Shown here: in pieces, positions 3,716 through 46,225 of the stretch
Position numbering within the stretch: the first letter of the stretch is position 1
Layout of the letters: each line of letters starts with the position of its first letter
Source of the DNA: Plantactinospora mayteni
GTDB taxonomy: Bacteria; Actinomycetota; Actinomycetes; Mycobacteriales; Micromonosporaceae
NCBI RefSeq assembly: GCF_016862935.1
Contig: NZ_BONX01000023.1
Location: 310,001 to 374,000, forward strand
Length of the DNA: 64,000 bases
Direction of reading: 5' to 3'
Position numbers and translations under genes: made by a program
Notes under the pieces: model-generated
What the model saw: the letters and a program-made list of their open reading frames with translations, nothing else
Told to the model about the DNA's origin: nothing
The model's database searches: none

Positions 3716-3744
3716 AGCGCCGGAGCCTAGTGCCGGCCTTGACA

Positions 3745-3795: not shown

Positions 3796-3885
3796 CGGAC
3801 CATAGGTCGTGGGCAACGCTTCACCCACGCCATCCGTCCCGACGCCACCACCGTCCCGCTCCCGGGTCGCCCCGAGAGGATCGAG

Positions 3886-24902: not shown

Positions 24903-25093
24903 GAGCAACTCACCGCAGGCATGCTACTCGTCTATCTCTAGATCATTCTGTCATGATTCCGTCTACGGTGGACGGCCGAACGGTGGGATGCGGGCTGCCG
25001 AAGGTGTGACGCAATCCAGACTCCGGGCAGGCACTCGATACCTTCGCAGCGGACCTGCCGCCACGGGAACGACTGACCCAGTAGGCTCCCGTC

Positions 25094-26982: not shown

Positions 26983-27085
26983 ACATTGGATGGGCTCGCT
27001 CACCAGGATCACCGTGCGTTTCGATCAACGCTCGCACTTCCGCCCATCGACCTCGGTCGGACGCTCACCCCTGGAGCAGACTGAA

Positions 27086-28477: not shown

Positions 28478-28502
28478 CCGGGCGACGCCCCCGGGCGCCT
28501 GC

Positions 28503-29078
28503 TCATCCGATCGGGGCCCGCTCCGAGGCGAGCCGGGCGAGCACGTCGACTGCTTCGCGGGCCGAGTAGTTCGACAGCCACATGCTCACCGTGAACGTCC
28601 AGCGCCTGACCTCCCGCCCATCGGGCGGGCGCAGCGTGGCCGGCAGGTCCTTGACCCGGACCACCAGGGTCCAGGGGCCGCCGGAGATACCCACACGACT
28701 GGTCTGGATCGCGAAGATCGACTCGATGTGGTTCCACGGCACCCGGAGCGCGAAGGCATCCGTACCGCTGCGACTGCGGGCCCGCACCCAGACCCCGCCC
28801 GGGTCGGCGGCGAGCCAGACCCCGGTCACCCTGGACACGACGCGGACCATCGCGAAGAGCACCACGATCAGAAAGGGCAGGACCAGCACCAGCAGCGTCC
28901 ACGGCACCCCCGAGGGGTTGATGGCGGCGATGCACAGTGGCGACAGGACACCCAGCCACACGACGGGTTGAAGCGCCAGCACCCACACGAGCGCCCTGCG
29001 ACGTAGGACGAACGGCTGTCCCTCGTCCGGAATGCTCGGCGCGCTCCGGACGATCCGATCGTCAGCCATGGATTCCAT
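28503..29078 (-). CDS. Two-TM membrane protein with PH-like domain
   Basis: 191 residues. Two hydrophobic segments, about residues 30-50 and 60-80 (LVWVLALQPVVWLGVL; WTLLVLVLPFLIVVLFAMV), form a hairpin in the membrane. After them is a beta-rich domain (VWVRARSRSGTDAFALRVPW, ISGGPWTLVVRV) of the bacterial PH-like type, facing the cytosol by inference. ATG codons at 29078 and 29069 are both possible. It is convergent with the RAMA-HEPN gene with only 25 bases between stops. Function unknown; the same kind of protein recurs at 54985. Confidence 0.6.
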   Translation of the reverse strand: MESMADDRIVRSAPSIPDEGQPFVLRRRALVWVLALQPVVWLGVLSPLCIAAINPSGVPWTLLVLVLPFLIVVLFAMVRVVSRVTGVWLAADPGGVWVRARSRSGTDAFALRVPWNHIESIFAIQTSRVGISGGPWTLVVRVKDLPATLRPPDGREVRRWTFTVSMWLSNYSAREAVDVLARLASERAPIG

Positions 29079-29301
29079 CGGGACTCAGCATCCCCGATCC
29101 CTCCCGCCATGCCGAGCCAAACGATAGCAGTCAATTTATTGATCAGGTCTGGCCACGCTCCTCAGCCTGCATGACGTCGGAGAACCTGACCCAAAGCGGC
29201 GCCCAGACCACCCCGGTAGGCGTTACAGGCCCCGGGGCCGCCACCCGTCTAGCGCCGCGCGTACGGCGATGTTGCATCCGGATGGCGGCGGAGGCGTTCG
29301 G

Positions 29302-31518: not shown

Positions 31519-31832
31519 CAGCGCCTCGCCAACTCGTGCGCCGTCGGCGCCTGCCGGGCCTGCCACCGCCGCAACGCGTCCTTGATCCGGGCGTTCTGCT
31601 CCCGGACGCCGGCCAATTCGGCGTACGCCCTGGCCAGGTCACCGGCGACCTGCTCCAGGAACTCGGTCACCTCGTCCGGATCGACTCCCCGCCGACCGAA
31701 GCCGACCGGGGTGAACCGGCGCAGCCGCACCTGCGACGGCAACAACGGCCGGTACGTCGCCGACCGGTACGCCGAGCCGAGCCGCCGCAGCGACTGCCCC
31801 TCTCGCCCCTCCCGCCGGAGCAGAGCACGCAC
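31518..31832 (-). CDS. Small DivIVA-like coiled-coil protein
   Basis: 104 residues. The central RFTPVGFGRRGVDPDEVTEF followed by a helical run with heptad character (LEQVAGDLARAYAELAG and VREQNARIKDALRRWQA) matches the start of DivIVA/Wag31-type proteins, where the GFGRRGYDPxEVD-like loop contacts membrane or partner. It is much shorter than Wag31 and stops after one coiled coil. GTG start with AAAGG upstream. It is translationally coupled to the zinc-cluster protein, so it may position or oligomerise that protein (inference). Confidence 0.6.
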   Translation of the reverse strand: MRALLRREGREGQSLRRLGSAYRSATYRPLLPSQVRLRRFTPVGFGRRGVDPDEVTEFLEQVAGDLARAYAELAGVREQNARIKDALRRWQARQAPTAHELARR

Positions 31833-32157
31833 AACCTTTCACCAGCCTCTCGGAGAACAGGACGTGGACAGGTGGCCCCGGCCGGAACCTTCGGCTTGCC
31901 CTACCCCAGACCGGGGCCACCCCGCCCCACCGCCGCACGCACGAGCAACACGTACGGCAGCAGGGCGTGACTCAGCAGCCGGGACGGACAACCCGTACAA
32001 GCTGACCGTCCGGCCGGGAGGTGACACCCCAAGTGCCATCCGGAGGCGTCGCGACGAACCTACAATCGGTAGCGGTTGTAGGTCAAGGATTAGGTACAAC
32101 CGGTTGAGGTTGGAGGTGGATCCGTGATCGAATGGGCATGCCATCCGGGGAGTGTGT
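31833..32157. other. Divergent intergenic region with a duplicated segment
   Basis: 325 bases between the DivIVA-like gene and the GntR gene. The part at 31862-31980 is a diverged copy of 32552-32665. On the minus strand the two copies would read SHALLPYVLLVRAAVG and NHALLPYVLPVAGAVG. The part near 32058-32106 holds inverted repeats that look like operators for the GntR gene. Confidence 0.45.
32058..32106. promoter_or_regulatory. Candidate GntR operators
   Basis: An inverted repeat ACCTACAA-N10-TTGTAGGT spans 32058-32083, and a perfect 10-bp palindrome CAACCGGTTG lies at 32097-32106. Both sit 50-100 bases before the GntR gene. They probably overlap its promoter; autoregulation is inferred. 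Confidence 0.55.
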
Positions 32158-32376
32158 ATGCCCAAGCAGCAGTACCAGGTGCTCGCAGACGAGCTACGTC
32201 AGAAGATCGAGTCAGGAGAGTGGCCGCCGGGCACGAAGCTGCCCAGCCGGTCACAGCTCTGCAAGGAGTACGGCGTCTCGGACACCGTGGTCGGCAAGGC
32301 CATGATGATCCTTCGGGCGACCGGACTAACCGAGACGCTTGAGGGCGTCGGCGTATTCGTGGCCGAACGCAAGTAG
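32158..32376 (+). CDS. Minimal GntR-family winged-helix regulator
   Basis: 72 residues containing little but a GntR winged helix: YQVLADELRQKIESGEWPPG, TKLPSRSQLCKEYGVSDTVV, then the wing GLTETLEGVGVFVAE. No effector domain follows, as in the stand-alone GntR-type regulators common near mobile or secondary-metabolism genes of actinomycetes. ATG at 32158 has GGGGAG six bases upstream; a GTG two codons earlier is possible. The upstream inverted repeats suggest self-control and perhaps control of the divergent DivIVA-like/zinc-cluster operon. Confidence 0.85.
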   Translation: MPKQQYQVLADELRQKIESGEWPPGTKLPSRSQLCKEYGVSDTVVGKAMMILRATGLTETLEGVGVFVAERK

Positions 32377-32944
32377 TCAGCAGCGCAACGGTGCCGAAAA
32401 GCGGCAGCAGTGCCGCCGGCCTCGACTTCTTCGAACAGTGGTCCACCGACCACGTTGGCGTAATGCTAGCGTGATCCGTTCCGCACTGGTTCACGTCCGC
32501 AGCCGGATACCAGCAACTCGCAGACGGTCTCACCATCTCTCGACCACTACATGTGGACGGGCGGCCCCGGTACGAATCACCGGCGCGCTCCCCCGAATTA
32601 AGGCCACGCCGGCCCACTGCCCCAGCCACAGGCAGCACGTACGGCAGCAAAGCGTGATTCAGGGCTGGCACGGCCAGCAGGGAGATCACGAGCCGTGTCA
32701 GCAGCGAATGCCCAAAGCCTGTTCAAACTCATCGCAAACGAAGATCTGTCGGAGCAGCAACTTGCCGGCCAGGAAAGGTACGTTCGATTGCGATAGAAGT
32801 AGCCGATCAGCCAGGTCGGCACAACTGGCCCATAAAACGATGATCCCGTCGCCAACCAGTTACTCAACGTGATTATGACTGGCTCACGATATACAAGTTT
32901 ACGGTTACCCGCAGATCGCGGCAGACATCCCATGATGTTTGTTG
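32377..32944. other. Gene-poor, lower-GC stretch
   Basis: 568 bases between the GntR gene and the transposase, clearly less GC-rich than the flanks. I see no convincing gene. It contains the second copy (32552-32665) of the segment found at 31862-31980. It ends at the IS110 element, whose right end is somewhere near 32,920. Decayed accessory DNA is likely. Confidence 0.4.
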
Positions 32945-34180
32945 TCAAGTGGTGGGTTGGGTTTCGGGCCATGCGGTGGTCTCGTCGTAGTTGGTGGCGG
33001 TCTTGAGGCAACCGTGGAGGATGCCGACGAGTCTGTTGGACAGTTGGCGGAGGGCGGCTTGGTGGCCGGTGCCGCGGTCGCGTAGTTGCTGGTAGTAGGC
33101 GCGGGCTCCGGGTGAGGCGCGCATGGCACAGAATGCCCATTGGTGGACGGCGTCGCCGAGGCGACGGTTGCGGGCATAGCGGGCGAGGACGACCCGGCGG
33201 CTTCCGGACGCGCGGGTGATCGGTGAGGTCCCGGCGTAGTTGCGGCGAGCTCGAGCGTCCGTGTAGCGGTCGCGAGCGTCGCCGAACTCACCGAGCAGGC
33301 GGGCGCTGAGGACGGGACCGAGACCGGGCAGGCTGAGGTAGCGGTGCGCGTCCCGGTGCCGGCCAAAATGTTCGGCCATCACCTCACCCAACTCCGCGAT
33401 CTCAATGTTGAGGATGTTGATCAGTTGGACCTGGGTGGAGACGATCGCCGCGTAGGCGTTCTGGACCGGGCCGGGCTGACGCAACTGGTCAGTGCGTAGA
33501 GCCTGCCCGATCGCGGCCGCTCTGCCCTCAAGGTCCCGTCGTCCGGCCCGGCGCAGCGCCGCGATGATCGCGGTGCGGGTCAGCCGCGCGGCTTTGACCG
33601 GGTCAGGTGCCTTATCCAGCAGTTCCAGGGCCTCACCGGAGGTCAGATCGTCGAACGCGTCCAGCGCGGCCGGGAAGAACTCCCGCAGCGCGGACCGCAG
33701 CCGCAGCACCTGACGGGTCCGGTCCCAGATCAGGCTCTGGTGCGCGCGGGCGATCAGCTTCACCGCCTCCGCAGCCGGACTGTCAGCGGCGGCTCGCCGG
33801 TGATGAGCGTGATCCAGCCGCACGATCTCCGCCAGGACGTGCGCGTCACCGGCGTCGGACTTCGCTCCGGACGTCGAATGGCGTTCACGGTAGCGGGCAA
33901 CTGACATCGGGTTGATCGCATAGACCCGGTATCCCGCCGCGAGCAGCGCCTGTACCCACGTGCCGCGATCGGTCTCGATCCCGAACCACACCCTGCCGGC
34001 AGCCTCGCCCGGGTCGAGGTCCGCCCACCCGGCCGGCATGTGCTCGGCGATCAGCGTGTGAAGCCGCTGCATGCCTTCCAGACCCTCCGGCAGCCTCGCC
34101 TTGGCCAGCCGCCGGCCGTCCTCGCCCAGGATCTCGATGTCGTGATGGTCCTCGGCCCAGTCATCTCCTACCCAGATCAT
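32945..34180 (-). CDS. IS110-family transposase (DEDD recombinase)
   Basis: 411 residues. N-terminal DEDD RuvC-like domain: MIWVGDDWAEDHHDIEIL with the first Asp, FGIETDRGTW with the Glu/Asp strand, and SGAKSDAGDAHVLAEIVR with the late acidic pair near residue 110. C-terminal Transposase_20 domain with LSLPGLGPVLSARLLGEFGD and the serine motif YAGTSPITRASGSR. The length is full for the family, and the gene appears intact. ATG at 34180 has GGGGAG six bases upstream; an ATG at 34201 lacks such a site. IS110 enzymes insert using an element-encoded bridge RNA. Confidence 0.95.
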   Translation of the reverse strand: MIWVGDDWAEDHHDIEILGEDGRRLAKARLPEGLEGMQRLHTLIAEHMPAGWADLDPGEAAGRVWFGIETDRGTWVQALLAAGYRVYAINPMSVARYRERHSTSGAKSDAGDAHVLAEIVRLDHAHHRRAAADSPAAEAVKLIARAHQSLIWDRTRQVLRLRSALREFFPAALDAFDDLTSGEALELLDKAPDPVKAARLTRTAIIAALRRAGRRDLEGRAAAIGQALRTDQLRQPGPVQNAYAAIVSTQVQLINILNIEIAELGEVMAEHFGRHRDAHRYLSLPGLGPVLSARLLGEFGDARDRYTDARARRNYAGTSPITRASGSRRVVLARYARNRRLGDAVHQWAFCAMRASPGARAYYQQLRDRGTGHQAALRQLSNRLVGILHGCLKTATNYDETTAWPETQPTT

Positions 34181-34201
34181 CCTCGGCTCCCCTGTGGACA
34201 T

Positions 34202-34430
34202 TAGCGGTCAGCAGCGCGGAGGAGACACCAGCGATCTAATAGTCAAGTGCTCACCGCCACGAGCCGGGGCACGTCATCCCATCAGCTGTCACGTCTCCTC
34301 ACGACCAGCGGGCGCACGGTCTGCCGCAAGACCTCGCAAGGGTCAGATGAGAAGAGTGCTGACCCACCAGCCGCTACCGGAGCCATCCTGCACCAGCAGG
34401 CTGACAGAACCTATTAGATGAGAAGGGCGC
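34202..34430 (-). ncRNA. Candidate IS110 bridge RNA region
   Basis: The non-coding left end upstream of the transposase start is where characterised IS110 elements (IS621) encode the bridge RNA that pairs with target and donor. The stretch contains repeated GATGAGAAG (34345-34355 and 34416-34426) and several short complementary blocks, but I cannot fold it by hand with confidence. Confidence 0.35.
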
Positions 34431-34658
34431 CCGCAGCGTCCAAGCGCGAAGGTCGCTACTCCATGGCCGTGGCGTCGGCAGCCGCGCTTCGGAGCGGATT
34501 GTCGTACTGGGACGGCGATAAGGCCGTCTTATTCAGGCGTCGCTGCTCCGATCAGCGCGCTCTAACGTTGAGACTTCACCGTAAGTCATAGAGCACAAGC
34601 AGAGCAGGGGCCGAATTTTGACTCGGAGACCTATCCGTTCAAGCTCGGACGGCACTCG
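34431..34658. other. Intergenic spacer beside the IS element
   Basis: 228 bases between the estimated left end of the IS110 element and the end of the AbiJ-like gene; no gene or clear signal seen. Composition is mixed, with an AT-rich patch just after the AbiJ-like stop. Confidence 0.3.
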
Positions 34659-35891
34659 TCAGGGCTGCTCCTTCGCGAGCCAGTCCTTCGCCTTCTGCGA
34701 AATCGTGTCCGGATACTTTCTCCGAAGAAACGTTAAGAACTGCCGCATACCTGCCGACTGGTCGTTGCCGTACGAGTCTTTTGTCGGTAAATCCAGCAAG
34801 CGGTCAAGGTCGGCTCCAATGAGCTCGTCGGCCACGAGCTCAAGCCGCATCAGCACGATGTTGCTGTGGTCGTAACTCCGGGTAAAGTCAGCCTCGTCCA
34901 GCCACTTCGTCTTGAGCACCTTGCGCACCGCCGAGGACTGAAGTTTGGCAGGGAGCGTCAGGTTTCGCAGCCACTTGCCATCCTCGAAGTCACGGTAAAA
35001 GGCACCTGCGGTTGGGTAGCTCTGTCGCTTGGCGAGAACCAGGTCTTCAAGCTCCCTGATCGTTTCTTTGCTGACGTATCGCGTGATTAGGTCGTAGGCG
35101 AGGCTCGCCAGCGAGATGTAGTGCACGGCAAGGTTGGGTTCGAGAGATGTTGCCGGCGTGTGGGCCTTCTCATTTCTGAGATGCTGGACACCCAAGTGTA
35201 GGTACCCGATACCTCTGAAGAAGTCCGCTTCGGCGTCGTTGGCAGGTGTCGCCTTACCGAACAGAGCTTCATAATGTGCGGTGTTCTGGGCGCTATTGTT
35301 GAAGACGTCCGAGGCCTTCTCTTTGCCCGTGATCTCGCGAAGCTTCCCGCGCACCAACTTGTAGGACTCCTCGACGGCATGGAAGTAATCCCCGGTCACC
35401 AAGTACTGCCCGATGTGGTCGTAAATTTCCCCGTGGATCTCGATCTGAATCTTGTTCTTTGAAACCGTCGCTTCGGTGGTGTAGATTGCGCGGGTGGGAT
35501 CAGCTACGTTGTCGGCCGCCGTTGTCTGCCCCATACCGGCAGACGGTGCACCATCGAGCTCCACCGCGATCCTTCGGATCCTGGCGATCTGGTCGTCCGT
35601 GATTTCCTCGCGGAAGCCTGAAAAGCCCGGAGCAGCCTGCTTTGCTTCGATGTAGTCCGCAAAGGTACCGAGCGCTGCCGCGACCTCGTAATCTGAGCCA
35701 ATTCTCCACAGCGTCCTCAACCTGTTTGCCTTCGACACTCCGTACTCGGCGTACTTATCATCGTAGATGTCGACGGCGAGGTCGTCGAATAGCTGCGCCA
35801 AAGATGTGTTTGTGAGATCGAGGACGTGTCCACCACTCATGCCCAGCACAGCCTCCAGGAAGGTCTTGTCTGGCAACGACAGCTTGCTCAC
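34659..35891 (-). CDS. AbiJ-type N-domain plus HEPN (TIGR02391/Ymh) protein
   Basis: 410 residues. Residues about 20-90 (LTNTSLAQLFDDLAVDIYDD, KYAEYGVSKANRLRTLWRIG) match the N-terminal domain found in AbiJ abortive-infection proteins. Residues about 190-260 (VFNNSAQNTAHYEALFGKAT, then HLGVQHLRNEKAHTPA) match TIGR02391/Ymh, a HEPN domain; RNEKAH near 238 is the R-x4-H ribonuclease motif. The C-terminal 120 residues are unassigned. GTG start with AGAGGAG upstream. It follows the methyltransferase gene by 85 bases on the same strand and is less GC-rich. A growth-arrest RNase acting behind the restriction-like genes is the likely role (inference). Confidence 0.75.
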   Translation of the reverse strand: MSKLSLPDKTFLEAVLGMSGGHVLDLTNTSLAQLFDDLAVDIYDDKYAEYGVSKANRLRTLWRIGSDYEVAAALGTFADYIEAKQAAPGFSGFREEITDDQIARIRRIAVELDGAPSAGMGQTTAADNVADPTRAIYTTEATVSKNKIQIEIHGEIYDHIGQYLVTGDYFHAVEESYKLVRGKLREITGKEKASDVFNNSAQNTAHYEALFGKATPANDAEADFFRGIGYLHLGVQHLRNEKAHTPATSLEPNLAVHYISLASLAYDLITRYVSKETIRELEDLVLAKRQSYPTAGAFYRDFEDGKWLRNLTLPAKLQSSAVRKVLKTKWLDEADFTRSYDHSNIVLMRLELVADELIGADLDRLLDLPTKDSYGNDQSAGMRQFLTFLRRKYPDTISQKAKDWLAKEQP

Positions 35892-35976
35892 GGCTCGTTG
35901 CTCCTCTACTCAACCTGTCGTTCTCTAGTGAGCCAGCATGATGACGTCTGCCCGACTGCACGACCAAGCACGAGTC

Positions 35977-38900
35977 TCATGCCCTGTCCGCATGTTCGGC
36001 GAGTCGTCGGCTGAACTCCGCGTGCGCTTGGCGATACTCACTCTCCCGGTCCGCCTTGTAGAACGGCGCCGTGTATCCCTCCGGCACCGGATTCTGCTCT
36101 GGATCCTCTAGGTACGCCACTAACTGCTGATAGTGTTCCTTCGTCTGCCCGAACCCGAAGCCGTAGGAGTCGGCGGAGATTCTTCTACCTGAGGAATCAA
36201 ACCACATCCGATCCTCACGATCAGTCAGAATCGGATAGCGGGATCGTAGAACCGCTATCAGCGCCTCAGCGTCCATCCCAAACCAAACCGCCACTAGTGC
36301 ATCGATTTCAACCAAAGCTGCTCGACGTCCCCGCTCACTCCGAAGCGGGGTCGACCTTTTCCAAGTAGGACCAATATCACTTAGCCCAGCGAGCCCGGGC
36401 CACCTTGTCGCCCAGCATTCGTCGAGCCACGCCTCCTTGAAAAGCTCTGACCAAAGGTCACTGAAGGCGTCCGTCATGCAATTAAGTCGAAGAATACGAA
36501 GCAATAGAGCCTGCACCAAAGGGTGATCGATATCGGCGGCGGGCATTTCCCTTACGGCACTGGGAGTAAGGTCCGCTCGTCCCGTTATTCGAAGTAGATA
36601 ATCAAGTGGCAAGGCGGCCCAGAATCCGGCAGCAAGTGCTGTTTCAAGATTGTCACGGAGCGCCATCGAGTGTACGGCGTGAACGTGAGTAGGGCCAGGA
36701 GGGATCAGGGCAGCAAAGAGAGACCTTTCTGCGCTTTTCGTATCGATCATCCGTCTCCAAAAGAGGCGATATCTCTCCTCATATCGATGATCACCTTCGG
36801 CATCCCGACCAGCCTGGGCAATCGTCTCCTCGCCGGTCATCACGTAGGTCGTTCGCGGAACTGCATTTGAGCTCAAAGCAATAATATCCCAAGACGACCA
36901 ATCCTTGTTGTTGCGGAAGGGTTCATTCGGCTCTTTCGCAAAGGGAGTAGCGATACCGAAATGTGTTCCTTGCAGTATCGCCTCACTTAGAGATTGAACA
37001 CGTCCCACCTTGTAACGAATAGAGCCCTCAAGCCGAGCAACAGTTTCGTGGTACCCGCTACTTATCCTTGGACGATAGTAACCGATACGGCGAGGCTGAG
37101 ATGCCAGCGCTTGGATAGCGCTTTGCTCATTTGTCGTGATTGGGTACAGTAGTTGCGTGTACTCCACCGGGCCTTCCGAATCACCCCTCAATCGCCCCCA
37201 ATCAGCAAGGAGATTGGCATTTACATTGATTACCCGAGTTCGGTGCGGTCTGACGTCCCACTTGCCCTTATACTTCTGTCCCGGAACTTCTCCTGATCCA
37301 TCATGAGAAAGCGAAGCAATCAGAACCGTAGGGTCATAAACTTGGGCTAGATGAAGGAAATTAGTTGGTCCAGATGAACCGTAAACGTGCACCCCAAATT
37401 CAGTGTGCGGGTTTATCTCACGGAACAGGTTCTTATAGTTGCAGAATTGAGCGTGAAGCCGCAGGTAACCATAAGTGGCAGCTCTTAGATTTTGCTCCCT
37501 GGGACCAACAAGGTGAGTATCAGGGTGGAGCAACCCCGCTGTTCCAGGCGCACGAAGATGCGACCAGACCCGACACATAAAAGCGCGATAGATATCGGGT
37601 TGCGTGCCAACCAGCAATGGAAATTCACTCATACTTCCGAAGAAGGAAAGGACACCAGAATTCGCTGTCAACTCCGCAAAGAAATGCAATCGCACAAGAG
37701 GCTCTCGGAGCAGTAGCAACTTGCGTTGCCGCCACAGTTCTATTGGCGGCTTTTCTGCCAGTCTAAACCAAGGATCATGTTCCGCGAGCACCACGTCCTC
37801 CATCCACCTCGGCCGTACCCAAGGTGGATTGCCGACCTGGAGGTCGAAGCCGCCTCTGCCGAACGCCTGCGCGAAGGTCAGTTCCCAGTGGAAGAAGCCC
37901 TGTTCCTCGGCGATCCGGGTCGCGGTGTGCAGCCAGGGGAAGCGTTCTTCCAACCGGAAGGGATTCTCCATCCCCATCAGCCCCTCAAGCCGACCCTCGT
38001 ACTCGCTCAACTCACTCAGCGAGGTGAGCTGCGAGACCAGCGAGTCTTCCGGGATGTCGGCGCGACCGAGCAGGGCTTCGGCGAAGATGAGCCAGCCGTC
38101 CAGGTTCGCCAGCGGCACCGGTCGACGCAACTGCTCGGCGAAGCTCACCTTCCGGGTCCCGGTCTGCCGGACCGGCATCTTCAACTGCTGCGGCTCGACC
38201 TCGTCCCAGAGCGAGACCTTCTCGTAGACGGCCGGATCGTCGTACGCCGGCACCTCCCGGACGTGCGTGACCTCGACCGGCTCGGCCGGATACACCTCGG
38301 CCGACCCGTCCAGCAGTTCAGCGGCGTCCAGCGGCCAGAACCACAGCGCGCACCAGGCGTCCATCACGGTCTTCAACCGCCAGTACGGCGTACCGGCCGC
38401 CGTCAGGTCGGCCAGGATCTTCTCCCTGGCCACCGCCCCGTCGGCCGCCGGCAACGGCCGCTCCGGCTCCACCTCCCACACCGGGATATCCCGACGGATC
38501 TCCCGCTCCGAGATCTCCAGCCGACGCCCCACCAGCTTCCACAGGAACTCGACCCGCCCAGCCAGCGCCTGCAACCGAGCCACCTGCGACGGCTGTTTCC
38601 TCGTCCCCTTGGCCGACGGCACGCGCTTCATCGCCGTACGCCATTTCTTGAGCTTTTCGGTCTCGGCCGGCGCCAGCTCGCGGGCCTCCTTCTCCCCCGC
38701 GACCGCGCCCCACCCGTCGGCCGGGAGCAGGAAGTGGTGGATGGTGCCCGGCTCGATGTTCCCGTCCCGGAACGGCCGGTCCTCCGGTGCCGTGTTCAGC
38801 CACGACTTGTCGGCAAGCTGTTCCGGCCGGTAGAGCCGCCGCCCACCACCGATCAGCGAGTTGCCCCGCTTGAGGTGCAGCCCGAACCACGGCGCCTGCA

Positions 38901-40920
38901 ACCCAACATGCATCACGTTCAGCCAGAGCGACACATCGGCCAGCTCGACCGCGGTCCGGTTCAGGTCGACGCCATAGCAGTTGTGCAGCGCGATGTACGC
39001 CTTCACCCGCTGCAACTCCAGGTGATAGGCCTCCGGTTCGAGAGCGGTCCCCAGCTCCTCCTGGCGCCGCCGCAGGTATTCGGCGGCCACCTGGTTGATC
39101 GCCTCGTTCAGGAAGGCGCCGGAGCCGAGCGCCGGCTCGCAGATCGTCCAGTCCAGCAGGTCCCGGGCGCGCAGCCCATCGCCAGCTTCCTCGATCCGGT
39201 ATTTCAGCGCGAGCTGGACGGTGACCTCGGTCAACGACTGCGGGGTGTAGTAGGAGGCGCTGGTCTGCCGGTCCCGCCCGGCGAGCCGGTAGACGAACGA
39301 ACCCGGCTCGTACGGGATCCGGCTCTTCGCCCCGGTGACCGGGTTCTCCTTCAAGACGAAGACTTCGTCGTCGTAGTCGTCCACCTTCGACTCGGGGATC
39401 ATCCACGAGCCGTCCTTCGGGTCGCCGTGCTTCGCCACCTCATAGAGCCGCTCGGTGGCGACGAATCCGGTGTACGACATCAGCCCCTCGTAGACCGCGC
39501 CGAGCTGGTTGATCCCCAACTGGGCGTACGAGATGAAGCCGCCACGCTTCCGCTTGCCGCCCTTGGTGATCATCAGCCGACGCAGCACCTCGTAGAGGGT
39601 GCGGTTGCGCAGCCGGGTGTCCAGCTTCGGCCCGTGAGGGTCGTCCGGGTCGTCGGGGTCGTCGGGGTCGTCCTCGTCGCTGCCCGGCTGCGGGATCTGC
39701 CGGCCGATCAGCCGGATCGCCTCCGGCAGGAACAGGTCGGACCGCATCGGCTCGAACCGCAGCCCCACGTCCTCACTCGTCTGCTCGCCGACCTCCTCGC
39801 CCGCCCCACGCGGCCGGTGGCCCTCGTTGACCATCCGGCAGAGCAGGTCCAGCGACTCGTAGAGGTGGAAGCCCTCCTCGGCCGAGGGCGGCAGCCGCCG
39901 CGAGATCAGGTCACCGAGCCGGGCCAGGCTGTAGCCGGAGACGTACTCGGGATCGTTGACCGGCAGCACGCCCAGCTCGGGGCGGGCCTCGGCGTAGAGC
40001 AGGAAGAGGATGCGGTAGAGGTAGCGCAGCGCCTCCCGGCTCAGGTCGCGGGCCAGCTCGTCCAGGTCGGCGACCTGCTCGGGACGGTAGCCGGCCAGGC
40101 GGATCCGGTCCAGCACCTCGTTGGCGATCAGCTCGACCGAGGTACGCAGCCCTTCCCGCAGCTCGCCGCTGACCCCGACCGCGTGCTGTCGGGAGCCGGC
40201 CACCAGGTCGGCCAGCGGCTCGCTGCCGCCCTCGGCGGGCGGGCGCAGCGAGTCCGCGCCGAAGAGCGCCGCGACGACGTCCAGCTCCCGTTCGTCATTC
40301 CGGCCGTACGCCACGTCGAGGCTGACCGCCAGATAGCGGCCCTCGCCCCAGACGCTCCGGTCGGCGAGGGTGATCACCCCGCCGCTCATGATGAGCACGT
40401 ACCTCGGCGGGTCCTCGGTGGCGAAGAGCCAGGAGGCGAGCTTGGCGCCGGTCTCGATGCGCTCCCCGCCGGCCAGCTCGATTGGGTCGAGCAGCCGGCC
40501 CGCCTCGGTCGGATCCTGGGCGGCGTCGGTGTCGACGGCCCAGCCGCAGTCCAGCGCGACGATGCCGTGCCCGGCGCCGCCCAGTTCGGCGTGCGCGACC
40601 GGGATCTCCTGCTCCTGCCCGGCCCGCTCGACCGTGATCGTCTGCCGTTGCGGGTCGCCGAAGCCGAGCACCTTCAACAGCTCGAAGTGCAGCTTTTGCA
40701 GCCGTTCCGGGTCGAACAGCTCCGGGTCGGCCAGCTCGATCTTCCGGTCGAAGTAGTCGCGCCGGAAGCCGCGCAGCCCGGCCCTCGGCGTCACCCGGCC
40801 GCCGCGCTCCTCCTCCGACCAGCGCTTGACGAGGCCACCCTTGAGGGTGGTCGGCAGCACCTCGGCCAGGTAGTGCGCGGAAAGATATTCACCCCGGTTG
40901 GTCAGCGACTCGAAACTCAT
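35977..40920 (-). CDS. Giant N6-adenine DNA methyltransferase (Eco57I-type)
   Basis: 1,647 residues. The SAM-binding motif I is CEPALGSGAFLNEAINQV near residue 600. Catalytic motif IV is DLQVGNPPWVRPRW near 1028, which marks an N6-adenine enzyme of the Eco57I/type IIL/PglX class. The N-terminal 550 residues and the last 600 (presumed target recognition) have no domain I can name. The ATG overlaps the SNF2 helicase stop by four bases (ATGA). No PD-(D/E)xK nuclease motif is evident. Codon use changes sharply after about 37,800: the 3' third is much less GC-rich. DISARM class 1 also pairs an N6-adenine methylase with a SNF2 helicase. The upstream extension of the frame to 42357 is a shadow. Confidence 0.88.
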   Translation of the reverse strand: MSFESLTNRGEYLSAHYLAEVLPTTLKGGLVKRWSEEERGGRVTPRAGLRGFRRDYFDRKIELADPELFDPERLQKLHFELLKVLGFGDPQRQTITVERAGQEQEIPVAHAELGGAGHGIVALDCGWAVDTDAAQDPTEAGRLLDPIELAGGERIETGAKLASWLFATEDPPRYVLIMSGGVITLADRSVWGEGRYLAVSLDVAYGRNDERELDVVAALFGADSLRPPAEGGSEPLADLVAGSRQHAVGVSGELREGLRTSVELIANEVLDRIRLAGYRPEQVADLDELARDLSREALRYLYRILFLLYAEARPELGVLPVNDPEYVSGYSLARLGDLISRRLPPSAEEGFHLYESLDLLCRMVNEGHRPRGAGEEVGEQTSEDVGLRFEPMRSDLFLPEAIRLIGRQIPQPGSDEDDPDDPDDPDDPHGPKLDTRLRNRTLYEVLRRLMITKGGKRKRGGFISYAQLGINQLGAVYEGLMSYTGFVATERLYEVAKHGDPKDGSWMIPESKVDDYDDEVFVLKENPVTGAKSRIPYEPGSFVYRLAGRDRQTSASYYTPQSLTEVTVQLALKYRIEEAGDGLRARDLLDWTICEPALGSGAFLNEAINQVAAEYLRRRQEELGTALEPEAYHLELQRVKAYIALHNCYGVDLNRTAVELADVSLWLNVMHVGLQAPWFGLHLKRGNSLIGGGRRLYRPEQLADKSWLNTAPEDRPFRDGNIEPGTIHHFLLPADGWGAVAGEKEARELAPAETEKLKKWRTAMKRVPSAKGTRKQPSQVARLQALAGRVEFLWKLVGRRLEISEREIRRDIPVWEVEPERPLPAADGAVAREKILADLTAAGTPYWRLKTVMDAWCALWFWPLDAAELLDGSAEVYPAEPVEVTHVREVPAYDDPAVYEKVSLWDEVEPQQLKMPVRQTGTRKVSFAEQLRRPVPLANLDGWLIFAEALLGRADIPEDSLVSQLTSLSELSEYEGRLEGLMGMENPFRLEERFPWLHTATRIAEEQGFFHWELTFAQAFGRGGFDLQVGNPPWVRPRWMEDVVLAEHDPWFRLAEKPPIELWRQRKLLLLREPLVRLHFFAELTANSGVLSFFGSMSEFPLLVGTQPDIYRAFMCRVWSHLRAPGTAGLLHPDTHLVGPREQNLRAATYGYLRLHAQFCNYKNLFREINPHTEFGVHVYGSSGPTNFLHLAQVYDPTVLIASLSHDGSGEVPGQKYKGKWDVRPHRTRVINVNANLLADWGRLRGDSEGPVEYTQLLYPITTNEQSAIQALASQPRRIGYYRPRISSGYHETVARLEGSIRYKVGRVQSLSEAILQGTHFGIATPFAKEPNEPFRNNKDWSSWDIIALSSNAVPRTTYVMTGEETIAQAGRDAEGDHRYEERYRLFWRRMIDTKSAERSLFAALIPPGPTHVHAVHSMALRDNLETALAAGFWAALPLDYLLRITGRADLTPSAVREMPAADIDHPLVQALLLRILRLNCMTDAFSDLWSELFKEAWLDECWATRWPGLAGLSDIGPTWKRSTPLRSERGRRAALVEIDALVAVWFGMDAEALIAVLRSRYPILTDREDRMWFDSSGRRISADSYGFGFGQTKEHYQQLVAYLEDPEQNPVPEGYTAPFYKADRESEYRQAHAEFSRRLAEHADRA

Positions 40921-43733
40921 GCCACACCCTCCGAGGCGTCGTCGACGAGGACGGCGAGCAGCCGCAGCAGCGGCTCGCCAGCGGTTTCCAACCGGGTGAC
41001 CAGGTCGGTCTGCTCCCGTACGGTCCGGGACACCCGCTGCCGGCGGCGCTCCCGCTGGGCCGGCGCCAGCTCGCCGAAGAGGCTGGCCTGCGCGAACCGC
41101 TCCAGCTTGCGGCGGTGCTCGCGCAGCGGCGCGGCGATCTCGGCGTCCCATTCGGCCCGCCGGGCGGCCAGGTCGACCCGGGCCGCCTGGACGGCGGCCG
41201 GGACCAGCGCTTCGAGACGGTCGAGCGGAACCCGCCGGCCCGGGTTCGCCATCTGCGGCCCGACCTTCGCGTCGGCCAGCGCGTCGAGCATCGGGCCCAC
41301 CCGGGGCGCGTCCGGCAGCCCGGAGACCGCCATCCACTCCACCACCGTCGGCTGGCCGAGCCGGTTGCAGTAGACGCCCTGGACCAGAAAAACCGGTTCC
41401 GGTACGGCTGCCATCAGCACCAGCGCCTGCTGCCGACCCAGCCGGGACAGCACCTTGTCGACCAGCCACTCCAGCATCGGATGTACGTCGCTGAGGAAGG
41501 CGATCTCCGGCCAGGTCGGTTTCGTCGACTCCCGGGCCTCGTCCAGTTTCCGCTGTGCGAGGCGCCGGTCGAAGGTCACCTTCAACCGCAGCTCCTCCCC
41601 CTCGGCGTGCGCCCGCAGATAGGACCGGGGCAGGTCGCCGAGCCGCTGCACCAGGTCGGCCGGGGCGAGGAACGACATCAGCTCGTCCTCCCGGCGCAGC
41701 CCGATCCGGTCGTCGGGCCGGTCGTCGTAGAGCTCGGCCAGCGCGGTGTCGACGAAGTCGCTGGTCGCGGCGAAGAGCTTCGGCACCTGCACCCGTTTCG
41801 GCTCCGCACCGACCGGCGCCTCGCCCACCGACGCCATCAGGTCGGCGAGCACGTCGACCTCGAAACCGGCGGCGTACGACTCGTCGACCGTCTTGCCCTC
41901 CAGCAGGTCGCGGACCAGCCGGTCCTCCTCCAGCCGGGCGTCGTAGAGGCCGGTCATCGCCTCCACACTGCCGAGACTGCGGTGGGCCGCCTCCTCGCGA
42001 TCGAGCAGCTTCTCCGCCACCGTCCGGTCGTCCTTGGCGTCCGGCACGTTCGAGGTGAGGATCAGCGCCCGGAACTGCGGCTCGTGCCGCTGGCCGTACC
42101 GGTCGATCCGGCCGTTGCGCTGCTCGATCCGGATCAGGCTCCACGGGATGTCGTAGTGCACCAGGTGGTGGCACTGCTGGTGCAGGTTCACCCCCTCGGA
42201 GGCCACATCGCCGGTGAAGAGCAGCCGCACGTCGCTGCCGGCCAGCTCGAACTCCTGCAACACCTGCTGCTCCTCGGCGTCGGTCAGCCCGCCGTGCAGG
42301 ACGCGTACCGCCGAGGGTTTCAGGCCGAGCCGGCGCGGCACCACCTCGGCCAGCCACTTGAGCGTCGGTACCCGCTCGGAGAAGACCACCGCCCGGACCG
42401 GGCGGCCCGGCCCGACGCCGATCTCATCGCGCAGCACCTCGACCAGCTTGGCCAGCTTGCTGGAGTCGTCGTCGGTCATCGCCGCCGTCAGCTCCGCGAG
42501 CCGGTCCAGCGCCGCCCGTTCCCTGCCCACCGCCTTCGCCGACCGGCTCCGGACCGTCGCCGCCAGCGCGACGTGCGAGGAGAGGAAGGACTTCAACAAG
42601 GTGTACGGGAACAGCCGCTCCTGTCCCCGGATCGGCCCGTCGGTCCACTCGCCGGCCAACCACACCTCGGTCAACTCGGCGAAGATCTGCTCCTCGGCGT
42701 CACTGGCGGGGCAGTGCAGTGCCCGGGACGGCCCACGATCGGCCCAGCGGTTGCCGATCTGGTCCCGTACCTCCGGACTGATCTTCGTCCGGCGCAGGTA
42801 GAGGTGGGCGATGTCCTCCGCCGAGTAGTCGTCGGGGTCGGTGATCGCGGTGGGGTCGAGCAGCGAGATCAGCTCGGCGAACGACCGCTTGTCACCGTTG
42901 TGCGGGGTGGCGCTGGCCAGCAGCAGCGCATCGGTCCGGGCGGCGAGCCGCCGGGCCAGTTCGTTGCGCTGAGTCCCCTTGTTGATCAGATTGTGCGACT
43001 CGTCGATCACCACCGCGTCCCACTCGATCGCATCGAGATGGTGACCGAACTGCCCGGCGTCCTTGAGGGTGTCGACCGAGATGATCGCCCGCTTGAAGTA
43101 GGTGAACGGGTTCCGCCCGGCCGGGATCTCCTGCTGGATCCGCTGGATCCCGGTCGAGTCCAGCCGGACCAGCGGGATGGCGAACCGGGTCCACAGCTCG
43201 CGCTGGAACTGCTCCAGCACCTGCTGCGGCGAGACCACCAGAATCCGGTCGCCCCGACCGCGCCGGATCAGCTCGGCCAGGATCAGCCCGATCTCCAGGG
43301 TCTTGCCGAGCCCGACAACATCGGCCAGCAGGATCCGCGGCCGCAGCCCGGCCAGCGCCGACTCCGCCGGCCGCTGCTGGTAGGTCAACGGGTCGAGCAG
43401 GAACCGGTCGGCCAGCGCCAGGCCGCGCTCCGACTGCGGCAACGGGGTACGCCGGAGCACCGCCTCCAGAAACAGTCGGCTGCGCCGGAACCGTGCCGAG
43501 GTGTCCGGGACCAGTTTGGTCTCCTCCGGCACCATCGCCCGGATTTCGTCCAGCTCGGTGAAGAACGTCGCCTCGACGTCCTGGACGAACTCGGAGACTC
43601 CGACGGCTTTGACCATCATCTCGCCGTCCCGGACCGGTCTGGCGTTCCGGACCAGCCATTCCTCGTCCCGGACCAGGATGCGCGAGCCGGGTGCGAACTG
43701 CTGGATAGCGGAGGGAGCGGGCGGAGGCGTCAT
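40917..43733 (-). CDS. SNF2-family helicase, DrmD/RapA-like
   Basis: 938 residues. SF2 Swi2/Snf2 ATPase: Walker A ADVVGLGKTLEIG near residue 139, DEAH-type motif VVIDESHNLI near 244, SATPHNGD, and the second RecA lobe with LLFTGDVASEGVNLH and QRNGRIDRYGQ near 540. The C-terminal 350 residues are helical with a charged coil (REHRRKLERFAQ). Its stop overlaps the methyltransferase start by four bases, so the two are translated together. DrmD of DISARM class 1 has a similar size and the same neighbour, but drmA, drmB and drmC are not next to it. ATG with AAGGA upstream at a rather long spacing. Confidence 0.88.
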   Translation of the reverse strand: MTPPPAPSAIQQFAPGSRILVRDEEWLVRNARPVRDGEMMVKAVGVSEFVQDVEATFFTELDEIRAMVPEETKLVPDTSARFRRSRLFLEAVLRRTPLPQSERGLALADRFLLDPLTYQQRPAESALAGLRPRILLADVVGLGKTLEIGLILAELIRRGRGDRILVVSPQQVLEQFQRELWTRFAIPLVRLDSTGIQRIQQEIPAGRNPFTYFKRAIISVDTLKDAGQFGHHLDAIEWDAVVIDESHNLINKGTQRNELARRLAARTDALLLASATPHNGDKRSFAELISLLDPTAITDPDDYSAEDIAHLYLRRTKISPEVRDQIGNRWADRGPSRALHCPASDAEEQIFAELTEVWLAGEWTDGPIRGQERLFPYTLLKSFLSSHVALAATVRSRSAKAVGRERAALDRLAELTAAMTDDDSSKLAKLVEVLRDEIGVGPGRPVRAVVFSERVPTLKWLAEVVPRRLGLKPSAVRVLHGGLTDAEEQQVLQEFELAGSDVRLLFTGDVASEGVNLHQQCHHLVHYDIPWSLIRIEQRNGRIDRYGQRHEPQFRALILTSNVPDAKDDRTVAEKLLDREEAAHRSLGSVEAMTGLYDARLEEDRLVRDLLEGKTVDESYAAGFEVDVLADLMASVGEAPVGAEPKRVQVPKLFAATSDFVDTALAELYDDRPDDRIGLRREDELMSFLAPADLVQRLGDLPRSYLRAHAEGEELRLKVTFDRRLAQRKLDEARESTKPTWPEIAFLSDVHPMLEWLVDKVLSRLGRQQALVLMAAVPEPVFLVQGVYCNRLGQPTVVEWMAVSGLPDAPRVGPMLDALADAKVGPQMANPGRRVPLDRLEALVPAAVQAARVDLAARRAEWDAEIAAPLREHRRKLERFAQASLFGELAPAQRERRRQRVSRTVREQTDLVTRLETAGEPLLRLLAVLVDDASEGVA

Positions 43734-43800
43734 GGAGTGGGGGCGTCCTTCGCAGGAGGGGTCTTCTGTTGTCTAGGAGATCCAAGCCGTAGCGGTGCGG

Positions 43801-44949
43801 TCAGAGGGTGCCGCGTCGGGCGTACTGCTGGCGCAGCCGGTCGGTCAGCCAGCCCACCTCGGCCCGTGGTCTGTCCGACGGCTCGGGATCCACAAGCGTC
43901 GTCGGCAGCCGCCGGGGCGGATCGGGGTCGACCCCGGTATTCGGCCCGTCGTTCGCAGGTCTGCCGATGTCGTCGTCGCTGGCACCGTCGTCGCTACCGC
44001 CACCGCCTGCGGCAACGTCCTCCTCCGGGTTCTGAATCGGGTCGGCGAACTCCGGTGGCACCATGATCTCGGTGCTGCCGTCGAAGGTCAGCTCGCCCAC
44101 CCGGCGCCGCATCTCGATCACGGGTACGCCGCCGGAGGTCGCGATCGCGAGCAGCCGGGTGCGTACCACCGGCAGGCTGGGCCGGGCAGTCGGATCGTGT
44201 GCGAGCATCGCGCCGAGCAACGGGGCCACCTCGCCCGGCACGCCGGAGAGGTTCGGTAGCACGTCCGGGTCGACGATCTGGAGCAGCAGTCCGGGCAGCC
44301 CACCGGCCGCGGAGTAGAGCTTCTGCCCGGTGAGCGCGAAGACCAGTGTCGCGGCGAGTCCGTAGATGTCCGAGCCGGCGCCCTGGTCCCGCTCGCCCTT
44401 GACCCGCTCAGGGGACATGTAGTGCGGAGTCCCGACCACGGCGCCCGGGTCGGTCAGGTAGTCGTCTCGTTCGGTGAGCACCGCCAGGCCGAAGTCGATC
44501 AGCACCGGCCCGTCCCGGCCGAGGATGATGTTCTGCGGCTTCAGGTCACGGTGCAGCAGGCCGGCTTGGTGCACCCGGTCCAGACCGTCGGCGAGCATTG
44601 CCCCGATCATCGCCACCAGTGGTAGCGGCAGTGGGTCGCGCTGCTCGACGTATTCCATCAGGGTCGAGCCGGGCACGTACTCGACCGCCAACCAGGCGGG
44701 ATCGCCGATCGGGTCGGCAGCCTCCAGGCGCGCGACCCGGGAACCCCAGACGAGTTGCAGACTCTCCACCTCGGCCGCAAACCGCTGCCGCACCGTCGAA
44801 TCAGCAAGTAGGTGCCGTCGGATGACTTTGACTGCGACCCGGTCCGCCGTCGGCGACACACCGAAGTAGACGTCTCCCATTCCTCCTGACCCAAGTGGAC
44901 GGATGAGCCGATAGTCGCCGAGCTGCTGCAAGGTGGGTGGCACAGTCAC
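43801..44949 (-). CDS. Cytosolic Hanks-type Ser/Thr protein kinase
   Basis: 382 residues. All main kinase motifs are intact: GSGGMGDVYFG (P-loop), VAVKVI with the ATP lysine near residue 41, HRDLKPQNIIL near 134, DFGLAVL near 153 and GTPHYMSPERV. Unlike PknB-type kinases there is no membrane segment or PASTA domain; after the kinase domain comes an acidic, Gly-rich, probably disordered tail (EEDVAAGGGGSDDG). GTG start. It lies between the TGT-like gene (49 bases) and the SNF2 gene (67 bases), all on the minus strand. Kinases also serve in Pgl (PglW) and Stk2 phage defence, so a signalling role in the operon is plausible. Confidence 0.9.
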   Translation of the reverse strand: MTVPPTLQQLGDYRLIRPLGSGGMGDVYFGVSPTADRVAVKVIRRHLLADSTVRQRFAAEVESLQLVWGSRVARLEAADPIGDPAWLAVEYVPGSTLMEYVEQRDPLPLPLVAMIGAMLADGLDRVHQAGLLHRDLKPQNIILGRDGPVLIDFGLAVLTERDDYLTDPGAVVGTPHYMSPERVKGERDQGAGSDIYGLAATLVFALTGQKLYSAAGGLPGLLLQIVDPDVLPNLSGVPGEVAPLLGAMLAHDPTARPSLPVVRTRLLAIATSGGVPVIEMRRRVGELTFDGSTEIMVPPEFADPIQNPEEDVAAGGGGSDDGASDDDIGRPANDGPNTGVDPDPPRRLPTTLVDPEPSDRPRAEVGWLTDRLRQQYARRGTL

Positions 44950-44998
44950 GCGCCGGATCGCCTCCCCATAACGATGGCACTCAACACATTACCGGCGA

Positions 44999-46225
44999 TC
45001 ACTCTGGCGATGTCGTCCGATCACTCCTCCGTTGCGGCGGAATGCTCCAACCTGGACGGCGTGGCGGAGGCGACGGATCATCCGATGGGGGTAGCCCGAT
45101 CGCCTGTTGCCAGTGGTCGAGTGCGGGTAGCGTGTCCCAGCCCACCTCCCGACGCCAGTACGCGGCATTGGCGCACCGGGCCCGCCAGGTCAACTGGTCC
45201 CGCCGGGGATCGGGCCCGATGAGCTGCTCCCGCAACTCGACGAGGGCGTCGAGTGAGTGCTGGAAGGCCAGCCGCTCCCGCATCCATTCGGGACGGTGCA
45301 GTATCCAGTCCAGGTCCCTGCCCTCGCAGGTCGAGCACCCACACCCCCACAGGTTGGTGTCCGGGTGCTGTCGCTTCGTGCGCGCCACCGTGCCGAGCCG
45401 CTTGTAGGAAAGGCAACCGGACACGACCACGGACGGCGCCGGGCGGGGCCAACCGCCGCGCGACGACGGCGGGACCATGGGATAGAGGTGGCGCAGGGCG
45501 GCGCGGGTACCGACCGCCGCCGCGACCGCGCCGCAACAGAGCGCGCCCAGCGCGGAGATATCGCAGCGCAGCAGGAGCAGCGGTACCTCGCAGTTCAACA
45601 GTTCGATCAGACCGTCGACGACACCCCGTACGCCGAACGGGTCGGCTTGGTGTTCGACGACGATCGCGATTGGTACGGCGAAGGCGCGTACGTGCCGCAG
45701 CAGGGCGTCTCGGGCACTCGGCACTCTGAGCCAGGACAGGTGCAGCGGCAGCAGTGCGATCGCGTCGTCGATCATCGCCGTCCGGCGCAGGATCGCGACG
45801 AGCCCGTCGAGGTCGCCCAGTCCCACGTAGCCCGAGTCGGTGAGCACCGGCAGTCCCAGGTCCCGCTGCCGCCCCAACCAGTCCGAGTCGAATGGTGTGG
45901 TGGCAGGCAGTCGACCGTTCCCGCCGTACCGGTTCGCGTCGAGAAGGAGCGGGCGGTCGTAGCCCTTCTCCACCAGGTAACACGCCCAGCGGTAGACGCC
46001 GGGTAGGTTGCCTTGGTTGGCGGTGACGACAAGACCCGTTCCGGGGTGGTTCACGATCCTTCTGACGTCGTCGACGTCGGCGATTCCGCACTGCGCCAGC
46101 AGCGTGCGGTCGAGCCCTTCGATAGTCCGGAGTGGAGAACCGAGCGATTGAGTCTGATCGGGCGCCACGTCGACCCCTATCGACGACCCTAAGTATCTAT
46201 AGGGTAACTCGACGCGATCGATCAT
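44999..46225 (-). CDS. tRNA-guanine-transglycosylase-like protein
   Basis: 408 residues. Two features recall TGT enzymes. LPVLTDSGYVGLGDLDG near residue 128 parallels the LTDSGGFQ loop with the conserved Asp. WGCGCSTCEGRDLDWILHR near 294, followed by LAFQHSLDALVELREQL, parallels the CxCxxC zinc site with its trailing helix and HNL motif. The middle is a plausible TIM-barrel with LLLLRCDISALGA. It is not a standard queuine TGT and lies far from any queuosine genes; the DpdA branch, which inserts 7-deazaguanine into DNA, is the nearest functional analogy. ATG at 46225 chosen; the TTG upstream frame is not convincing. First gene of the minus-strand run that includes kinase, helicase and methyltransferase. 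The Pro/Arg-rich tail is probably disordered. Confidence 0.55.
   Translation of the reverse strand: MIDRVELPYRYLGSSIGVDVAPDQTQSLGSPLRTIEGLDRTLLAQCGIADVDDVRRIVNHPGTGLVVTANQGNLPGVYRWACYLVEKGYDRPLLLDANRYGGNGRLPATTPFDSDWLGRQRDLGLPVLTDSGYVGLGDLDGLVAILRRTAMIDDAIALLPLHLSWLRVPSARDALLRHVRAFAVPIAIVVEHQADPFGVRGVVDGLIELLNCEVPLLLLRCDISALGALCCGAVAAAVGTRAALRHLYPMVPPSSRGGWPRPAPSVVVSGCLSYKRLGTVARTKRQHPDTNLWGCGCSTCEGRDLDWILHRPEWMRERLAFQHSLDALVELREQLIGPDPRRDQLTWRARCANAAYWRREVGWDTLPALDHWQQAIGLPPSDDPSPPPRRPGWSIPPQRRSDRTTSPE

Follow-up and report, generated by a model that had tools for sequence, protein, structure and literature searches.

What a run of five co-directional genes does in the genome of the actinobacterium Plantactinospora mayteni is the question raised by positions 34659 to 46225 (minus strand) of a 64,000-nucleotide stretch of contig NZ_BONX01000023.1, referred to here in its full length as the window. 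The run encodes, in order of transcription, a TGT-like enzyme, a Ser/Thr kinase, an SNF2-type helicase, a very large N6-adenine methyltransferase and an AbiJ/HEPN-like protein, and an earlier note on this DNA took it for a combination not known as a described system. Here, we argue that the locus is probably an ARMADA Type II system that belongs to an actinobacterial clade with an added kinase, and that a block of cargo genes divides it into a kinase-armA-armB half and an armC-armD half, a judgement drawn from sequence comparison that covers the identification jointly with the working proposed for it below. The five genes are not a free-standing new system, and the new part among them is the kinase.

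The three central genes of the run are as the earlier note had read them. The kinase, for which we coin the label armK, lies at 43801-44949 (382 aa; Pfam Pkinase, 1.9e-34), followed by an SNF2/RapA-like (BrxHII-like) helicase at 40917-43733 (938 aa; confirmed as SNF2 by Pfam and DrmD-like in PADLOC, 274.9 bits) and a PglX-like N6-adenine methyltransferase at 35977-40920 (1647 aa; Pfam Eco57I), all on the minus strand. The spacings of 49, 67, -4 and 85 bp along the run are exact, as is the presence of an IS110-family transposase beside it (32945-34201, minus strand; NF033542, 164 bits); the methyltransferase starts at an ATG that overlaps the stop of the helicase gene by 4 bp, the start at 42357 in the open reading frame (ORF) list being an in-frame upstream extension. 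A methyltransferase search of 151 related genomes, the window's own included, with gene maps made by a codon-usage script trained on six window genes, revealed kinase, helicase and methylase as a recurring three-gene unit, after which many genomes carry a gene of about 2000 aa whose product begins like M/V-R/K-PT... The window copy of this gene is found at 18441-24902 (minus strand, 2153 aa) and encodes a YprA/DruE-like helicase with DEAD, Helicase_C and MZB (DUF1998) zinc domains in Pfam and a PADLOC match to DruE of 308 bits, followed at 16171-18441 (minus strand, 756 aa) by a GajB-like UvrD helicase (Pfam UvrD-helicase, 2.4e-21; PADLOC GajB, 90 bits). With these two genes, armC and armD, the window has the full gene set that Bell et al. 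2025 (PMC12458937) described for ARMADA Type II, and it is to this system that the locus is matched. The E. coli NCTC 12900 system is reported there to protect against phage without abortive infection, to require all four Arm proteins and to depend on both helicase and methylase motifs.

The match extends to single residues. Those mutated by Bell et al. are found exactly at the given positions in the E. coli plasmid proteins (ArmA K136/D236, ArmB G605/N971, ArmC K110/D234 and ArmD K266/D454), and all eight are kept in the window: the Walker-motif residues K144 and D244 of ArmA, at the positions of K136 and D236, G599 of the SAM motif and N1031 of the NPPW motif in ArmB, K107/D225 in ArmC and K300/D501 in ArmD. 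Each of the four window proteins shares 35-37% global identity with its E. coli plasmid counterpart, and the order and strand of armA-armB-armC-armD are retained, with 11 kb between armB and armC. ARMADA II systems were found by tblastn on plasmids of both E. coli and Klebsiella, and an IMG/VR scan gave six relatives, each best segment showing 28-43% identity. The arm genes of the Klebsiella record adjoin a further large helicase gene and an STY4851-family gene, which we take to be Druantia III. When the set was put to PADLOC, as the earlier note had proposed, models of 2023 recognized the Arm proteins piecemeal, as DrmD, REase_MTase_IIG, DruE and GajB, the methyltransferase being nearest to the type IIG and DrmMI models; the resemblance of the SNF2-methylase pair to that of DISARM class 1, and its place in a defence locus, were rightly seen, and the system to which the pair belongs is a different one.

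These findings bear directly on the reading of the five genes as one new system, in which the TGT-like enzyme and the kinase replace drmA/B/C and an AbiJ/HEPN effector ends infection by RNase-driven arrest. Five genes in one direction with short gaps favour that reading, as does the adjacency of the TGT-like, kinase, helicase and methylase genes in a second genome of the genus (G005), and the AbiJ-like protein carries an RNEKAH stretch which we take to be a HEPN-type motif. Against it, armC and armD, a YprA-type and a UvrD helicase, are present both in the window and in homologous operons, and the outer genes of the run do not travel with the inner ones: 80 homologous loci (the best 80 of at least 546 relatives) yielded no TGT-like gene at E <= 1e-3, and the AbiJ-like gene occurs in one of seven genus genomes. 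We regard the one-system reading as largely refuted and very improbable. Linkage elsewhere accordingly holds for kinase, helicase and methylase and fails for the TGT-like gene outside the genus and the AbiJ-like gene outside this genome, and the 'two further helicase/nuclease modules' seen beside the run do exist, but include the other half, armC and armD, of the same system.

Both outer genes look accessory. The AbiJ-like gene (34659-35891, minus strand, 410 aa; AbiJ/Hypoth_Ymh, PF09509, 2.2e-13), which has a lower GC content, was found in the window's own genome alone out of seven of the genus and in no other of the 90 loci that bear the kinase. The conserved system therefore does not include RNase-driven arrest by AbiJ. 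The TGT-like gene (44999-46225, minus strand, 408 aa, with alternative ORF starts possible as far as 46276) lies upstream of the kinase, and its product has no Pfam, PADLOC or NCBIfam match. That it is a working part, exchanging a base of the 7-deazaguanine type in DNA or tRNA and so feeding the system as in Dpd or BRIGADE, would fit its zinc ligands C295, C297, C300 and H323 (CxCxxC...H), invariant in 15 of 15 sequences, its barrel-like alpha/beta model (predicted local distance difference test score, pLDDT, 84.8), the best PDB match of its profile, a weak one to the archaeosine TGT 1iq8 (ArcTGT) over the zinc site (E 0.011), and its position beside the locus in G005 too. Foldseek matches of the model are, however, a mixture of barrels and other alpha/beta folds with human QTRT1 weak and only at rank 20 (E 5.8e-3), the closest paralogues lie elsewhere in the chromosome, one at ~50% identity in a gene neighbourhood that is similar in several genus members, and the gene accompanies ARMADA only in this genus, complete in the window and G005 and as relics in G002 and G004. 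A contig search with the TGT-like protein alone gave 20 pattern matches and no relative. Membership of Dpd was rejected, the protein having no DpdA match in PADLOC or NCBIfam in a comparison that did not include a search for the preQ0 pathway, and a working role for the TGT-like protein in the system seems to us improbable. The relic in G002 (L025; L numbers denote fetched loci and G numbers genomes, G000 being the window's own) consists of a TGT-like fragment with an N-terminal stub of armC, and that in G004 (L039) of TGT C-terminal and kinase N-terminal remnants.

If the locus is ARMADA Type II, as we consider probable, one departure from the E. coli arrangement is the block of about 11.1 kb (24903-35976) that parts armB from armC. 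This block holds the AbiJ-like gene, the IS110 transposase and, reading towards armC, a 72-aa gene (32158-32376), a 104-aa gene (31518-31832, minus strand; DivIVA-like, below the cut-off), a gene for a 738-aa protein (29302-31518, minus strand) that is resembled by proteins encoded close to the locus in G002 and G004, a RAMA and CBS domain protein (27086-28477, plus strand; PF18755, 3.2e-18, and CBS, 1.4e-9) and, divergent from armC on the plus strand, a HEC-01A-like AAA ATPase (25094-26335; PADLOC HEC-01A, 8.7e-136) with its HEC-01B-like partner (26365-26982; PADLOC HEC-01B, 2.9e-36). One could read such a locus as a broken remnant in which cargo and IS110 have separated the two halves and defence has been lost, and the relics in G002 and G004 do testify to decay in the genus. 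Yet the four core ORFs are open at full length with their catalytic residues kept, and the split is recurrent. Of the 90 loci with the kinase, 33 have armB directly followed by armC, 30, among them the window, show armC beyond an intervening block, and 17 show no armC within 2.9-10 kb, the remaining 10 being unscorable for want of sequence beyond armB; in the 20 loci outside the clade the two genes are contiguous. Two of the loci scored without armC in view, in G026 and G477, have armC some 16 and 14 kb further along the same contig and strand, and in G005 the contig bearing armB ends 2 kb after it, armC lying on another contig. Counting loci without armC in view as split, the split and contiguous states require at least six changes on the tree. 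We judge the remnant reading to be very doubtful.

The armB-armC junction is also the only one seen to be interrupted: kinase and armA are never more than 283 bp apart (90 loci) nor armA and armB more than 395 bp (90 pairs), and armC and armD are adjacent in all 33 loci in which the gene after armC is visible, 17 more ending at the locus border. What fills the junction differs from what lies upstream of the kinase, as judged from raw counts uncorrected for length. Genes with XRE/DUF5753 domains occur in 40 of 47 junction blocks vs 3 of 90 upstream stretches, DUF397 genes in 35 vs 3, HEC-01A-like genes in 15 vs none, GmrSD-type genes in 14 vs one and caspase-helicase-like matches in 10 vs 6; RAMA-CBS-like genes go the other way (3 of 47 vs 8 of 90). 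In the window block itself, no XRE or DUF397 domain was found in eight of nine genes, those scanned being all but the 72-aa gene, and a search of 24500-36500 found no pair of flanking direct repeats of 16 bases or longer. A Streptomyces bay (L158, 17608-22608) contains an AAA helicase to which a Caspase (C14) domain is fused, and next to it lies a Beta_protein gene. The embedding of defence genes in defence operons is itself known, from the HMA-embedded candidates (PMC12988326). As conserved features read from sequence, the cargo bay and the kinase are both well supported, their functions being proposed from context.

How firmly the kinase belongs to the system was assessed from a genome scan with 17 ArmB sequences, which gave at least 546 relatives, of which the best 80 were kept. 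armA is present in 78 of these 80 loci and the kinase directly upstream of it in 75 of 80 by the gene maps; of the five others, L156 has a kinase missed at first, L103 and L130 start inside or near armA, and L131 and L160 lack armA. An ArmA tree (FastTree, 112 rows, long branches flagged) was built with omission of L095 and L180, duplicates which share contigs with L076 and L166, respectively, and of L131 and L160, which have no armA beside armB; for six plasmid loci, contiguity and the absence of a kinase were entered manually from the annotation, the kinase coding then being checked by six-frame search. On this tree, the 90 kinase-bearing rows fall on one side of a single supported branch (98*), together with the two unassessable rows, L103 and L130, and the 20 kinase-free rows fall outside it, such that kinase presence needs one change, a value that none of 500 shuffles reached. 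Within the clade the kinase adjoins armA in 90 of 90 assessable loci, at a gap of -4 to 283 bp and with nothing seen between, and the view that the kinase is part of the set is thereby sustained. A six-frame search with a kinase profile of the 20 outside loci and of the stretch before the start of the Microvirga record, which begins just ahead of armA, returned one weak match, which lies in L092 at a distance from armA and on the opposite strand; the same search recovered five of five kinase loci used as a control, and the 14 mapped outside loci hold 4.3-7.7 kb upstream of armA.

Could the kinase nonetheless act elsewhere than on the Arm proteins, as a neighbour in control of the cargo, of general physiology or of the XRE/DUF397 regulators? 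Other kinases do occur in ARMADA loci: a second Ser/Thr kinase stands after armD in L093 (23497-24879, cut by the locus end) and in L095 (23523-24467, without the tail motif described below). Against this, 33 kinase loci have no cargo, and the kinase therefore does not come with the cargo; nothing intervenes between it and armA in 90 loci; and its distances track those of ArmA nearly as closely as do those of ArmB, the distance correlations over 88 loci being 0.935 for kinase-ArmA, 0.906 for kinase-ArmB and 0.945 for ArmA-ArmB. From the distance test, as from the kinase tree and the tail count below, L024 (the same gene as L040) and L095 were left out, although both are among the 90 kinases first counted.

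The kinases so linked also share features of their own. The HRD and DFG-type aspartates are present in 88 of 88 (a strict pattern finds 82 and 80, and listed variants account for the others), and 79 of the 88 match a simple pattern for the VAIK-type lysine. Past residue 270, the hydropathy typical of a membrane segment is attained by none of these kinases (highest value 1.32) vs 7 of 11 unlinked kinases (1.93-2.67), and behind a variable linker there is a conserved C-terminal tail with the motif R..Y in 83 of 88 different linked kinases vs 0 of 11 unlinked ones, one of which is cut by the locus end; the background for R..Y was 63 in 1800 random 30-residue pieces of kinase bodies.

Several points tell against a kinase that is integral to ARMADA and need to be set against this record. 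No kinase stands near armA in the plasmid systems of E. coli, Klebsiella, Gemmobacter, Microvirga, Aulosira and Tsukamurella, and ARMADA as such does not require one, as the E. coli type protects without it (PMC12458937). The distance correlation is also raised by shared descent alone, and a tree of linked and unlinked kinases needs three changes, not one, although its starred branches force only one. Serine and threonine are not enriched among kinase-clade-specific columns (11 of 71 such columns in ArmA-D), and no phosphosite is therefore supported, a finding that would suit a kinase with targets elsewhere. The ratio of 90 loci to 20 is, moreover, no measure of prevalence, since the sampling drew mostly on the 80 closest among at least 546 relatives. 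In an even draw of 396 genomes from within the phylum, eight had an ArmB match at E <= 1e-60, giving nine loci, four with the kinase and five without; whole-genome searches scored the two or three best candidates per genome, two in this draw. On balance, the kinase is likely a fifth core gene of the actinobacterial clade, genuinely linked, with a role proposed from sequence, while a mere neighbour with other duties is in our view rather unlikely. Bell et al. 2025 (PMC12458937) do not use the terms 'kinase', 'phosphoryl-', 'accessory', 'Streptomyces', 'XRE' and 'DUF397' in their main text, where 'cargo', 'embedded' and 'interrupt-' do occur but in other senses in the passages concerned, and a literature search with few subscription papers within reach gave no printed link between ARMADA and a kinase in the passages covered (12 of 30 places for PMC12839542).

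The host genome itself holds two ARMADA II loci, that of the window with the kinase and a second (L089, on contig C50) without it. In L089, drmA-like and drmB-like genes stand upstream of armA in place of the kinase (PADLOC scan), and the same pair lies just upstream of armA in the kinase-free Tsukamurella locus L174 (PADLOC) and, judging by gene size, in L085-L088, L091 and L182. In such kinase-free loci two YprA helicases, one of the DISARM type and one of the ARMADA type, may share a single armA-armB pair. Other arrangements are also seen before armA, L090, L092 and L186 having a 171-aa gene (DUF4365 in L090, the sole one scanned) and a gene of 371-374 aa there. Just upstream of the kinase in L095 is a 634-aa gene (4155-6059) that matches N6_Mtase, a second adenine methylase beside ARMADA, and genes of 630-650 aa occupy the same place, by size, in other Micromonospora loci. 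On the Microvirga plasmid (L194), a gene annotated as a phage exclusion protein of the Lit family (3125-4072) precedes ARMADA II by a few kb. Elsewhere in the window's own genome (contig C72, 38863-48478), a third YprA-like helicase ORF (1723 aa) lies near a further ArmB-like methylase ORF (1491 aa), perhaps another system of the ARMADA kind.

Three of the Arm proteins have parts that vary or appear to be fused. The C-terminal part of ArmB (aa ~1050-1647; window 35977-37800) has a GC content at third codon positions of 0.47-0.60 vs >0.9 before it, and identity to the G005 orthologue is 44-66% over aa 1101-1600 vs 79-93% over aa 1-1000; the dip in GC at 34-38 kb spans this part and the AbiJ-like gene. 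From these sequence features, the stretch from about aa 1050 to 1600 is a candidate for a swapped or fast-evolving target-recognition-like region. ArmC ends in a motif PD...F / VAVYLDGFRYH / D..KR with D1747, G1766, H1770, N1776, D1781 and R1785 invariant in an 18-row alignment, which we read as that of a putative Vsr-like nuclease, and the N-terminus of ArmD forms a beta-alpha-alpha-beta-beta-beta unit in an AlphaFold2 model of moderate confidence, sub-threshold ParE-type matches being found in three of four N-termini scanned (those of three homologues, not the window's own). Neither reading is free of difficulty: the C-terminal piece of the window ArmC has no Pfam match, the 50 Foldseek matches shown for the whole ArmD model are all helicases without a RelE fold among them, and the Vsr-like and RelE-like assignments, resting on motif and topology, are moderately supported. 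The core identification is well supported from sequence and independent of these fused domains.

How might such a system work? From the requirements reported by Bell et al. (PMC12458937), the most likely division of labour is that ArmB modifies DNA, ArmA surveys it and ArmC-ArmD act on what is found. ArmB would methylate adenines of host DNA, its divergent C-terminal part recognizing the target sequence, and ArmA, a translocase of the SNF2/RapA type, would survey DNA together with it; unmodified or replicating phage DNA would be passed to ArmC, with its helicase and putative Vsr-type nuclease, and ArmD, with its UvrD helicase and putative RelE-like domain, which would act directly to block replication of the phage, in line with the report on the E. 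coli system (PMC12458937). The kinase, predicted to be soluble, would use its C-terminal tail to dock on ArmA or ArmB and would phosphorylate the complex, switching it between modification or rest and restriction, on the model of Pgl, where PglW is the proposed activator of PglX (Hoskisson 2015). Cargo at the armB-armC junction would add separate back-up defences, HEC-01-like and AbiJ-like here and caspase-helicase or GmrSD-type elsewhere, mostly with an XRE and a DUF397 gene. A stronger version, in which actinobacterial ARMADA II is signal-gated, the tail-held kinase being an obligatory subunit that switches ArmA-ArmB to ArmC-ArmD and the gap between the halves a bay for interchangeable back-up effectors under the XRE-DUF397 pair, is one that we put forward as a tentative possibility.

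ARMADA has been tested as a four-gene system in E. coli (PMC12458937), and the kinase-bearing clade spans many actinobacterial genera. It likely adds to Pgl and MADS another defence system in which a kinase and an adenine methylase are coupled, and the question of how such systems spare host DNA narrows here to one kinase and one short tail, while the single bay between armB and armC is a place to look for new defence genes.

Among known systems, several resemble the locus in part; on the matches shown for the proteins scanned, it was judged to belong to none of DISARM class 1, Druantia, Pgl and MADS. DISARM class 1 is alike in its SNF2 helicase (DrmD-like) and PglX-like methylase (DrmMI-like), but DrmD scores 293 bits against an NCBI cut-off of 610, and no DrmB or DrmC is among the matches shown for 15 window proteins. 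ArmC resembles DruE of Druantia (308 bits), a system to which the locus was not assigned in view of ArmA and ArmB and with no other Druantia protein among the PADLOC matches shown for the same 15 proteins. Pgl, or BREX type 2, likewise combines a Ser/Thr kinase with a PglX-like methylase in an actinobacterial defence operon; here, however, the kinase is small and stands alone (PglW, 45 of 990 bits), PglX models score 15-19 bits, and neither PglZ nor BrxC/PglY is among the matches shown for the scanned window proteins. The kinase scores on the MAD6 models of MADS (PADLOC, 162 bits; NCBIfam, 102 bits), but the latter value falls far below the NCBIfam cut-off of 460, the best PADLOC kinase model is PD-T4-6 (183 bits) and no Mad set is among the matches shown, the sole other Mad match in the scanned window proteins being mad3 for the HEC-01A-like ATPase, well below HEC-01A. 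With the HMA-embedded candidates and their 'guilt by embedding' (PMC12988326) the locus shares defence genes lying inside a defence operon and a HEC-01A/B-like pair, and it differs in having ARMADA II as the host operon and a single junction as the site of the cargo. It is with ARMADA Type II that likeness is most complete, the same four genes standing in the same order with all eight mutated residues and even identity across the set, and the window departs from it by the Ser/Thr kinase before armA, the cargo block between armB and armC, and the TGT-like gene upstream.

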